Positions 5,967 to 8,356 of a stretch of 54,839 nucleotides of DNA are shown in pieces. The stretch comes from Candidatus Woesearchaeota archaeon (lineage in GTDB: Archaea; Nanobdellota; Nanobdellia; Woesearchaeales; GW2011-AR9). The notes under the pieces were generated by a model. That model saw nothing but the letters and a program-made list of their open reading frames with translations. It did not search any database and was not told the origin of the DNA. The position numbers and the translations under genes are program-made. Position 1 is the first letter of the stretch; every line of letters starts with the position of its first letter. The stretch is from positions 1-54,839 of the forward strand of contig CAMAVK010000005.1 in NCBI GenBank assembly GCA_945861715.1, in the 5' to 3' direction.

Positions 5967-6674
5967 ATGTATGATGAACTTCAACATGCGGGTTTAACAG
6001 GAACAGAATCAAAGATTTATGTGATGCTTCTTGATTTGAATAAGTCACAAGCGGGTGTATTGTCTCGCAAGACCGGGATTCATCGTCGTAGTATTTATGA
6101 TGCGCTTGATCGGTTAATTGAGAAAGGGCTCGTTTCTTATATTGTTGAAAATGGAAAGCGGTTCTATATGCCAGCTGACCCTTTGCGACTCGCGGAGATT
6201 ATGCGGGTTCAACAAGAGGCGGTGCTTGCGGTGGTGCCATCGCTCACTGCACGGTTTGCTGAGCAGAAAGGGAAGCAGGAGACACAGTTTTTTCGTGGTA
6301 AAGAAGGAATTCGGTCTGTATTTGATGATCAGATTTCTGCGGGTAAGGATGTGTATATCATTGGGGCTTCACATTTAGCGAAGGATTTGTTGAAATATTA
6401 TTTACCTCATTACACCAACAGTCGGGTGAAGAAGAAAATTAAATTGCATTGTATTTATTCTGGGGAGAAACATGTTGATGGGAGTGGGGTGCCACTTGCT
6501 GAGGTAAAATATTTGCCAAAAGAGTTTGGGTCACTGGTGTCAACCAATATTTGGGGTGATAAAGTAGCCATTATACTTTGGATTTTTGATCCGGTGGCCA
6601 TTGTGATTTCTCAAAAGGATATTGCGGTGGCGTTTAAAGGGTATTTTGATATGTTGTGGAAGATTGCGAAGTAG
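5967..6674 (+). CDS. TrmB-family transcriptional regulator
   Basis: This is a 235-residue TrmB-type regulator. Residues ~1-70 form a winged helix (LTGTESKIYVMLLDLNKSQ, then RKTGIHRRSIYDALDRLIEKG, then a wing ending GKRFYMP). A short coiled linker (~75-105) is followed by the TrmB effector region (FFRGKEGIRSVFDDQISAGK to FDPVAIVISQ). The family senses sugars or other small ligands and controls promoters; the ligand here is unknown. The start at 5967 was chosen because GGTGGTGA lies 5 bases upstream and the wing begins at once; an in-frame ATG at 5886 falls inside the palindromes. The final 27 bases of the gene are duplicated at about 7.67 kb, beyond the HEPN-MNT genes. Confidence 0.85.
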   Translation: MYDELQHAGLTGTESKIYVMLLDLNKSQAGVLSRKTGIHRRSIYDALDRLIEKGLVSYIVENGKRFYMPADPLRLAEIMRVQQEAVLAVVPSLTARFAEQKGKQETQFFRGKEGIRSVFDDQISAGKDVYIIGASHLAKDLLKYYLPHYTNSRVKKKIKLHCIYSGEKHVDGSGVPLAEVKYLPKEFGSLVSTNIWGDKVAIILWIFDPVAIVISQKDIAVAFKGYFDMLWKIAK

Positions 6675-6676
6675 TG
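6647..6676 (+). repeat. Left copy of 30-bp direct repeat (end of trmB-like gene)
   Basis: These 30 bases, from TGATATGTTGTGG to the AGTAGTG covering the stop codon, recur at 7665-7694 with one mismatch (G to A). Together the copies bracket the HEPN and MNT genes and little else. Confidence 0.8.
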
Positions 6677-6684
6677 GTTTTTTC

Positions 6685-7077
6685 TTATTTGTTTGCTAAT
6701 TCTTTTAATTGAAGGATTATATCTTCTATTTTTTGTTGGTTTTGGGTGATGAAATTTTCATTGATGAAGAATCCTTCATAAGAGATTCGGTTTCTATGGT
6801 CTCGAAGTTGTTGGAGGAAGAGGCGTGTTTGTTCCGGAAGTTTTGTGGATCTTGCTATGTGGTCGATTAATTCTTGGTGTGCTCCTTCTCCCACTGTTTT
6901 TACTCCTTGTTTAGCTCCAATAGCTTCAAGGAGTTTGTGGATGATGTCATAGTAATCAGTTAAGCTGTTGCTTGGGTATTTTGTTATGTCGGTCGTTTGA
7001 AGTCTTTCAAGGGTTAATTCAGCCATTTTTGATAGTGAGTTGGCTTTTTGGGGATCAGGTGATGTTTTGATTATCAT
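6685..7077 (-). CDS. HEPN-domain protein (putative toxin)
   Basis: This 130-residue all-helical protein has a late conserved motif LRDHRNRISYEG (~92-104). That matches the Arg-rich active-site helix of HEPN proteins, which act as RNases or as partners of minimal nucleotidyltransferases. The classical R-x4-6-H is not perfect here: the position usually held by His is Tyr/Glu, as in some MNT-paired HEPN families. It overlaps the upstream nucleotidyltransferase gene by 4 bases, a sign of translational coupling. In characterised HEPN-MNT pairs the HEPN protein is the toxin and the MNT neutralises it by nucleotidylation; that role is inferred here. The pair lies between two copies of a 30-base repeat and is very AT-rich. 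Confidence 0.75.
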   Translation of the reverse strand: MIIKTSPDPQKANSLSKMAELTLERLQTTDITKYPSNSLTDYYDIIHKLLEAIGAKQGVKTVGEGAHQELIDHIARSTKLPEQTRLFLQQLRDHRNRISYEGFFINENFITQNQQKIEDIILQLKELANK

Positions 7078-7622
7078 GGATATCCCTCTAGAAATCCTTG
7101 AAGTATTGTGCCGTTTATAATGTTGTTTTTTAATTCTGGGGCGTATTCTTTGAAATTTGGTTGAAAGTGAAGTTCTATTTTTCGGTTTAGTTTTTTTTCA
7201 AAGGATTTTAAATTTATTTCTTGGGGTTGGGCTTCAATAAATATGTCAATATCACTGGTTTCAATATCTTCTCCTCGATTGTAGCTTCCAAATAAGACTG
7301 TTGATTTTGGGAAGGTTTGTTCTTCAATATGTGGTATTAATCCTGAATTAAGAAGGTTGTTTAGATTTTGTATTTTTTTTGTGATGATAAATAATTTCTC
7401 ATTTCGGTTTGCGATGTACTCTGGAAAATTCCTTTTTCCTTTTTTCTCTATTATTTTAATAATGATGTTTTTTTTAATTAGGTTTATGAGGTTATTTTTT
7501 GTTGAGGTGTGCGCTAGCTTGGTTTTTTGGCTGATGGATGCGAGGCTGAATTTAGTGGTGGGGTTGTTATAGAATAAATTTAATGTTGTGGCCATGCTAC
7601 TTTTTTGTATCATATAGTACAT
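7074..7622 (-). CDS. Minimal nucleotidyltransferase with N-terminal HTH (putative antitoxin)
   Basis: The protein is 182 residues. Residues ~10-65 form a winged helix-turn-helix (SLASISQKTKLAHTSTKNNL). The C-terminal half carries the nucleotidyltransferase signature FGSYNRGEDIETSDIDIFI, with Gly112-Ser113 and Asp124-x-Asp126 as the metal site. This is the MNT partner of the HEPN protein encoded next. The HTH could allow it to bind its own promoter. On the minus strand, TTTATAAAG lies near 7637-7645; a leaderless start at the ATG at 7613 is nearly as likely as 7622, which has AGAGGATT upstream. Lys and Asn content is high, unlike neighbouring genes, which fits recent acquisition. Confidence 0.78.
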   Translation of the reverse strand: MYYMIQKSSMATTLNLFYNNPTTKFSLASISQKTKLAHTSTKNNLINLIKKNIIIKIIEKKGKRNFPEYIANRNEKLFIITKKIQNLNNLLNSGLIPHIEEQTFPKSTVLFGSYNRGEDIETSDIDIFIEAQPQEINLKSFEKKLNRKIELHFQPNFKEYAPELKNNIINGTILQGFLEGYP

Positions 7623-7664
7623 TTATGTAATCCTCTTTATAAATTTTGTGTGGGTTTTTGTGTG

Positions 7665-7694
7665 TGATATGTTGTGGAAAATTGCGAAGTAGTG
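7665..7694 (+). repeat. Right copy of 30-bp direct repeat
   Basis: It is 29/30 identical to 6647-6676 and still encodes the trmB C-terminal codons plus stop, but it has no gene in front. It lies 42 bases past the start of the MNT gene and about 57 bases before the AbrB start. Confidence 0.8.
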
Positions 7695-7751: not shown

Positions 7752-8018
7752 ATGATTGAAACGGTAAAAGTATCTTCAAAGGGACAGATCGTTATTCCGG
7801 AACGTATTAGGAATAAATATCATATCACCGAAGGTACAAAATTGATTCTTCGCGAAAGTAAAAATACTCTTATACTGGAGACGGAAACGGAGTTTCTTCA
7901 TGATCTTGAATTGATGGAGAAGCAGAAAGAGAATCTAGGTTGGTTAATGGTTTCTCAAAAGAGTCTTGAAAAGGATTGGCTTAGTGAGGATGAAGAAGAG
8001 AATTGGAAGGATTTGTGA
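7752..8018 (+). CDS. AbrB/MazE-family antitoxin
   Basis: The 88-residue product begins with a swapped-hairpin AbrB DNA-binding domain: VKVSSKGQIVIPERIRNKYH followed by EGTKLIL and an ILETE strand. The C-terminal ~40 residues are acidic and aromatic (LGWLMVSQKS, DWLSEDEEENW), which is typical of the toxin-wrapping tail of an antitoxin. The ATG at 7752 fits the TATA box; the upstream in-frame extension would run through the operator. The MazF-like gene follows after 2 bases. The pair probably represses its own promoter through the inverted repeat just upstream. Confidence 0.88.
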   Translation: MIETVKVSSKGQIVIPERIRNKYHITEGTKLILRESKNTLILETETEFLHDLELMEKQKENLGWLMVSQKSLEKDWLSEDEEENWKDL

Positions 8019-8020
8019 TT

Positions 8021-8356
8021 ATGGTTTCTCGCTATTCTAAAGGTGATGTGATTGTTGTCCCTTTTTCATTTGCCGATTTATCTGGTGTTAAAAAACGTCC
8101 TGCGTTGGTTTTAGCATCGTTACCTGGTGATGATATTGTTATTTGTCAAATTACCGGTAAACTGCTAAGTGATGAGTTTTCAATTTCTCTTTTAGATGGA
8201 GATGTTATTGGTGGAAGTTTGCAAAAGATAAGTTGGATTCGTCCTAATAAAATGTTTACTACAGATAGTTCTATTGTTAGTTATAAAGTTGGTCAGATTA
8301 GTATTTCTAAAATTAAAGATGTTGAGATAGTCTTGGTTGAGTTGTTTACTCGCTGA
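8021..8356 (+). CDS. MazF/PemK-like toxin
   Basis: This 111-residue protein shows the PemK/MazF SH3-like barrel: KGDVIVVPFSFADLSGVKKR followed by PALVLAS, then ICQIT, SWIRPNKMFT and a C-terminal helix. Family members are mRNA endoribonucleases; the basic KKRPALVL turn and the Ser/Thr-rich strands match the usual active-site neighbourhood, although catalysis is inferred. The ATG at 8021 lies 2 bases after the antitoxin stop codon. A TTG at 8003 would overlap the antitoxin gene and is less likely. Confidence 0.82.
   Translation: MVSRYSKGDVIVVPFSFADLSGVKKRPALVLASLPGDDIVICQITGKLLSDEFSISLLDGDVIGGSLQKISWIRPNKMFTTDSSIVSYKVGQISISKIKDVEIVLVELFTR

Follow-up and report, generated by a model that had tools for sequence, protein, structure and literature searches.

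The window, by which we mean the whole 54,839-b stretch of DNA analysed here, is one whole contig (C5) of a genome of 1,295,831 b in 8 contigs that is possibly incomplete. Near one end of the window, a two-gene unit of the HEPN-MNT type lies behind a TrmB-family gene, and the end of that gene is found on both sides of the unit. The features are, in order:

5967..6674, plus strand: gene for a TrmB-family transcription regulator, the putative target, an intact ORF (Pfam TrmB, E=2.5e-13; ORF list)
6647..6676, plus strand: repeat copy 1, the last TrmB codons, the stop and 2 nt (29/30 identical to copy 2)
6677..7664, minus strand: probable inserted unit of 988 nt, a short upstream region with the MNT and HEPN genes (the stretch between the copies; compare the extent over which related cassettes match, below)
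6685..7077, minus strand: HEPN-fold protein of 130 aa, in the toxin position, without the Rx4-6H histidine (AlphaFold, Foldseek, motif count)
7074..7622, minus strand: MNT nucleotidyltransferase of 182 aa, in the antitoxin position (Pfam NTP_transf_2, E=3.8e-9; profile match to MntA)
7665..7694, plus strand: repeat copy 2, a detached TrmB end outside any TrmB gene (29/30 identical to copy 1)
7752-8356, plus strand: MazE/MazF pair, directly past the second repeat

The TrmB protein is a sugar-type transcription regulator by Pfam and not the tRNA methyltransferase. Its stop codon (TAG, 6672-6674) lies inside repeat copy 1. The HEPN and MNT ORFs overlap by 4 nt and are both convergent with TrmB; the ORF list also contains a shadow ORF on the opposite strand between the repeat copies. 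The initial annotation had pointed to a 30-base repeat of the TrmB end that brackets the HEPN-MNT pair and almost nothing else. The positions of the repeat and its uniqueness in the genome are confirmed, and the pair is all that the 988 nt between the copies contain. The pair had also been called markedly AT-rich. This is a fair description of its composition (33.3% GC, compared to 38.6% in the window), but the deviation is mild, as 9 of 539 sliding windows of the same size, its own included, are equally AT-rich. Two toxin-antitoxin pairs adjoin in the window, HEPN-MNT and then MazE/MazF, and self-comparison of the window gave no repeat that brackets MazEF alone.

The repeat could be what is left of a TrmB paralogue in tandem, or a match that arose by chance. 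The genome has five TrmB matches, this gene included, and TrmB paralogues have a YFDxLWxIAK-like C-terminal end in common. We find this origin scarcely credible, because the two copies are identical at 29 of 30 positions at the DNA level and their ungapped extension stops at 30 nt. With up to 3 mismatches allowed, the genome contains the 30-mer at these two places only (a reversed-pattern control gave 0). When direct repeats in the window were scored at +1/-2 over spacings of 600-1500, the TrmB-end repeat scored 27, the next best repeat 16, and 20 first-order Markov shuffles no more than 16. In addition, the same pattern is found at unrelated genes, as described below.

By predicted fold and gene order, the two genes are a HEPN-MNT pair and thus a putative toxin-antitoxin pair. 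The window's HEPN protein has no Pfam match at the cut-off used for the window proteins (E<=0.001), and sequence searches of solved structures with it found no HEPN protein. The HEPN protein of locus L040 has a HepT-like match at E=0.012, which is under the Pfam cut-off. The AlphaFold model of the window's protein (pLDDT 97.7) has HEPN structures as its top Foldseek matches (2hsb, 1ylm, 7ae6 and 5yep, HepT among them), with probabilities of 0.98-1.00, TM scores of about 0.5-0.65 and a best E of 6e-3, none of them reaching E<=0.001. The MNT sequence by itself matched no solved structure at E<=0.01; a profile made from 10 MNT relatives matched MntA of Shewanella oneidensis (5yep) at E=4.1e-5. 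The MNT motif GSx8-10SDxD is present in 193 of 199 pairs. In the HEPN protein, the motif RNRISY sits in place of the classical R-x4-6-H, and across the same 199 pairs the form RNx[I]xY was counted 176 times, the form with histidine not once, and neither form in 23. The residue H67 is nearly invariant in 47 aligned sequences. Judging from these motifs, the predicted activity of the RNx[I]xY family may differ from that of HepT. Several HEPN proteins that are linked to MNT and lack the Rx4-6H motif can still be toxic, according to an excerpt of PMC3710099.

The best 80 of 297 named relatives of the MNT protein are mostly labelled Woesearchaeota, Nanoarchaeota and Aenigmatarchaeota, with some Pacearchaeota, three Methanoperedens and one bacterial label among them. 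By these labels, the window's genome is likely to be that of a DPANN archaeon. A query with the single sequence found no viral relatives. HEPN-MNT loci were compared in two surveys, and a flanking direct repeat was counted when its score was at least 18. The first survey consisted of 130 loci, 30 from an MNT search of 145 genomes and the next 100 chosen down that list. It held 129 distinct pairs, the window's included, of which 9 were dropped for flanks that were too short. Flanking repeats were found around 24 of the 120 pairs tested, the window's own among the 24. None of 1499 mismatched flank pairs reached that score; among 536 random intervals taken from the same loci, 5 did, two of them being the tandem paralogues of L105. 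The second survey started from 86 pairs in named genomes; 16 overlapped the first survey and 5 had short flanks, and repeats flanked 13 of the remaining 65, compared to 1 of 1497 mismatched flank pairs. Both surveys together give 37 bracketed pairs out of 185 (20%), the window's included, whereas random intervals give 1-2%. Ordinary same-strand two-gene units (from L093-L192 and the window) gave 0/56 (Fisher p 3e-5 against 37/185). With 700-nt flanks, repeats were counted around 26 of 118 HEPN-MNT pairs and 9 of 484 random intervals with a 950-nt core.

The repeats around the 37 bracketed pairs are 18-172 nt long (median 33), and the median insert is 1086 nt. Cassettes without repeats, which the initial annotation had set against its own reading, do occur insofar as 148 of the 185 pairs have no repeat above the threshold; these pairs presumably have duplications that are short or decayed. 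Most of the genomes are metagenome assemblies, in which faulty assembly could account for some of the short exact repeats. Repeats whose copies differ by several mismatches are not easily explained in this way.

The duplicated sequences are of many kinds. We assigned targets by a mechanical rule, in which the repeat overlaps an ORF of at least 100 aa and either stops no more than 35 nt short of the ORF end or runs beyond it. By this rule, 12 of the 37 repeats lie at ORF 3' ends, 8 at ORF 5' ends, 2 inside ORFs (L329, L344) and 15 at places without an ORF of at least 100 aa; some of the target ORFs are possibly spurious, and that of L168 looks so. In addition to TrmB in the window, 3' ends assigned by Pfam are those of PGK (L127), ScpB (L169) and an SRP54-type, FtsY-like GTPase (L160). 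Other 3' ends belong to what we take to be exonuclease III (L040, the last 20 nt with the stop), a secretion-type ATPase (L054) and GatE (L095, 102/103 nt). Two 5' ends are presumably those of a uracil-DNA glycosylase gene (L139) and a 3-methyladenine glycosylase gene (L104). In these named examples, one copy of the repeat is part of an ORF that looks complete, and the other is a detached fragment.

TrmB ends did not emerge as a preferred target. A search for the TrmB-end pattern beside 129 pairs gave six matches, which, without a formal test, we do not read as a preference because TrmB genes are common in these genomes. One match is the window's own intact TrmB end, one lies past HEPN in L156, and two (L047, L120) do not look like TrmB. 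The remaining two are TrmB-like 3' ends upstream of MNT: EMMWKMAKA* at 3383-3488 of L139, 84 nt from the MNT gene, and ETMWKQAKP* in L109, 69 nt from it. In both loci, it looks as if the cassette had brought along a piece of an earlier site; the piece in L139 is situated between the MNT gene and the duplication.

What is shared between loci is the pair with a short stretch upstream. When cassettes were compared across genomes (at least 72% identity over at least 250 nt), identity reached 83%, and the matching region ran from 26-75 nt upstream of MNT to roughly the end of HEPN. The flanks of matching cassettes in different genomes did not match, and a few of the matches span only part of the unit. 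The match between L051 and L061 continues through the flanks, as expected from inheritance, since the two are from the same genus. In 5 of the 24 bracketed cassettes of the first survey (L104, L105, L139, L156, L189), the repeat takes in the stop codon of HEPN, by 3 to 15 nt; for the overlap of 3 nt, the repeat might have been extended by chance. It is as if the arriving DNA in these five cases had come without the last part of HEPN and borrowed an end from the host, which argues for fragments with arbitrary ends.

The initial annotation had proposed that the cassette uses the 3' end of a protein gene as its attachment site. In its fullest form, this would be site-specific integration by an integrase acting in trans, with the 30-mer as the core of the attachment site. 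The arrangement of intact gene end, cassette and repeated gene end is indeed what such integration should leave, and it is present in the window and in L040, L054, L127, L140 and L169. The wider set of loci does not bear the proposal out. The repeats vary from 18 to 172 nt, and the targets are unrelated genes, at 5' ends as well as 3' ends, and places where no gene was called. Related cassettes at different loci have different repeat sequences. Inspection revealed no end motif common to the cassettes, and scores for terminal inverted repeats were like those of the null, with 2 of 24 cassettes above its 95th percentile. Neither of the two genes in the cassette encodes an integrase or transposase by Pfam and structure. 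The TrmB loci of 12 relatives have no second copy of the last 30 nt nearby (best other match 19/30). We therefore regard site-specific integration as very improbable. Because lengths and targets vary, we take the repeat to be duplicated target DNA and not a recognised attachment core. End scores like the null and repeat lengths of 18-172 nt also argue against a transposon with inverted ends and a short fixed duplication.

If the repeat is duplicated target DNA, a site without the cassette should have a single copy. The window's own locus gave no such empty site. Among the 96 genomes searched, even the closest ones are from other genera, the TrmB genes inspected in them have other surroundings, and the 10 relatives' loci compared had no synteny around TrmB. 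The single copy at an empty site, which the initial annotation had anticipated for this locus, was seen for another cassette. In G047, a HEPN-MNT pair lies at the 5' end of what is presumably a uracil-DNA glycosylase gene, within a 66-nt repeat. In G042, a sister species of the same genus, the upstream gene of 109 aa is joined directly to the glycosylase gene, with a single copy of the sequence and no pair. The two copies in G047 are identical to each other at 61 of 66 positions; compared to G042, the intact copy is identical at 54/66 and the detached copy at 51/66. Four of the five differences between the G047 copies arose in the detached copy. These identities and the polarity of the changes are as expected if the duplication took place after the species split and the spare copy then decayed.

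This was the one clean empty site obtained; three other attempts gave none. G036, compared to G002, has the same cassette and lacks the stretch that holds the detached copy. G145 and G100 both have an MNT gene behind FtsY, so that the insertion is inherited, and only the first HEPN codons align. For G129, another gene comes next in the two relatives where the gene end is readable. At the G145 locus (L383), the sequence diverges past those first HEPN codons and then contains another ORF that looks MNT-like.

These comparisons also bear on capture assisted by homology. DNA from a relative, carrying a gene end together with a cassette, could have entered by a single crossover in the gene end, in which case the second copy would be the donor's. 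Mismatches between repeat copies lean toward third codon positions (25/53 among rows scoring at least 15 plus L187; 23/41 without L155 and L168, in which the repeat or the ORF looked spurious). Such a lean fits duplication followed by constraint on one copy, and it also fits some import of a relative's gene end. The divergent copies of L104, which resemble two orthologous ends, are in keeping with import as well. Against it, the two G047 copies resemble each other more than either resembles the sister species' sequence, with most of the changes in the detached copy. Moreover, each kind of target would need a donor with its own matching arrangement, and the first arrival of a cassette at each gene is left unexplained. 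We think that homology-assisted capture is improbable as the source of the window's repeat.

Based on these results, we conclude that the HEPN-MNT pair was probably inserted at the TrmB 3' end, with a long duplication of the target. The earlier idea of a mobile two-gene cassette of about 1 kb with no integrase inside is supported, and the repeat is best explained as having been made at insertion. We infer that the likeliest mechanism is the capture, at staggered breaks, of fragments with arbitrary ends that are then kept by addiction. A DNA fragment with arbitrary ends, by chance holding an intact pair, would arrive and be joined into a break with two nicks 30 nt apart. Gap filling would then copy the 30 nt, so that TrmB would retain its end and a spare copy would be left past the cassette. 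A cassette that moved in this way would need no mobility gene. We propose that two things kept the fragment in place: toxin-antitoxin pairs are not easily lost, and the duplication left the host gene unharmed. The data suggest that HEPN-MNT modules spread without a mobility gene of their own.

Similar scars are not exclusive to HEPN-MNT pairs. Out of 50 loci given for each module, repeats scoring at least 18 were found at 5 of 47 MazF loci and 3 of 48 PIN loci. These frequencies are not clearly above those of random intervals of like, wider geometry (15/499 with a 330-nt core and 1000-nt flanks); compared to the 56 two-gene units, p is 0.018 for MazF and 0.095 for PIN. Two of the MazF positives (L266, L279) lie in AT-rich simple sequence. 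Another MazF locus, L216, is bracketed by an exact 58/58 repeat that resembles a gene 3' end, stop included.

Self-comparison of L093-L192 (719 kb), a set chosen for HEPN-MNT and hence biased toward it, gave 61 repeat pairs at 300-2500 nt, of which 48 are outside a single ORF; by hand count, 28 of the 48 bracket a recognised HEPN-MNT pair. Some of the others are tandem or repetitive genes, and several bracket other small modules. These include a second pair with a Pfam nucleotidyltransferase (L117), a Bro-N gene (L114) and a peptidase S66 gene within an exact 23-nt repeat (L134, 8034-9148), which is possibly a non-toxin cargo of the same process. A two-gene unit in L102 (2994-4285) has a direct repeat of 108 nt at 98%; we take it to be an HTH and RelE-like pair, and we take a bracketed gene in L126 to be PIN-like, in both cases with no Pfam support. 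At 1807-4206 of L117, the start of one gene is present three times (matches of 22, 35 and 115 nt), bracketing two successive pairs that look like HEPN-nucleotidyltransferase pairs. As far as the sequence can tell, L117 is a case of repeated insertion at one site.

A general form of this process can be imagined, although we consider it rather doubtful. In DPANN and some other archaea, a sequence-independent activity would insert short pieces of foreign DNA where two nicks lie tens of base pairs apart, and the gap would be filled. Cargo that is addictive would be kept, making toxin-antitoxin modules mobile without a mobility gene or defined ends. The scars at some MazF and other small modules would then mark further cargo.

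How toxin-antitoxin modules move without a transposase or integrase is an old question, and a target duplication is a scar that can be counted. About one fifth of the tested HEPN-MNT pairs keep this scar, often at housekeeping genes whose ORF is whole, and the evidence points to two genes and a short upstream stretch as the entire mobile unit. The scar makes the mechanism testable. It could also be used to date and orient insertions, and small selfish modules might be found by their brackets alone. Our search of titles and abstracts, a weak one in which subscription literature was thinly covered, found no papers that deal with target duplication at archaeal toxin-antitoxin pairs, HEPN-MNT or other.

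Integrative elements that enter the 3' ends of genes are flanked by a direct repeat of the gene end and leave the target gene intact. The insertions described here are similar in that a repeat of the gene's 3' end flanks the insert and the target gene is intact. They differ in that the unit has no integrase and no fixed target, the length of the repeat varies, and 5' ends are targets too. As a gene pair, the cassette resembles HepT-MntA (type VII), in that both are two-gene operons with MNT first, a HEPN fold and an MntA-like nucleotidyltransferase motif. It differs from MntA in having some 85-100 extra residues before the nucleotidyltransferase domain, and from HepT-type HEPN proteins in having RNx[I]xY in place of the Rx4-6H histidine (176/199). 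The HEPN-MNT pair has been called mobile before (Makarova et al. 2009, PMC2701414); excerpts of that paper name insertions that one Deinococcus species has and a related one lacks, and likewise for a pair of Thermus strains, and its main text has 0 occurrences of "direct repeat".

The closest parallel is with restriction-modification systems, for which insertion with long target duplication was proposed (Nobusato et al. 2000, as cited in excerpts of PMC3874152, PMC3031569 and PMC1643837). In those excerpts, the duplications are "in the order of 100 bp" (PMC3874152) or "long and variable target duplications" (PMC3031569), and the same pattern is described in two Helicobacter pylori strains (PMC1643837). 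As portrayed there, both kinds of insertion involve a small addictive gene complex, long and variable direct duplications of the target, and no linked mobile element. The duplications here are shorter than those in the excerpts, with a median of 33 nt among the ones above our threshold. In contrast to the restriction-modification insertions, the cargo here is HEPN-MNT and the hosts are DPANN and a few other archaea. Through the scars around HEPN-MNT pairs, toxin-antitoxin modules are linked to the way in which restriction-modification systems have been proposed to insert.
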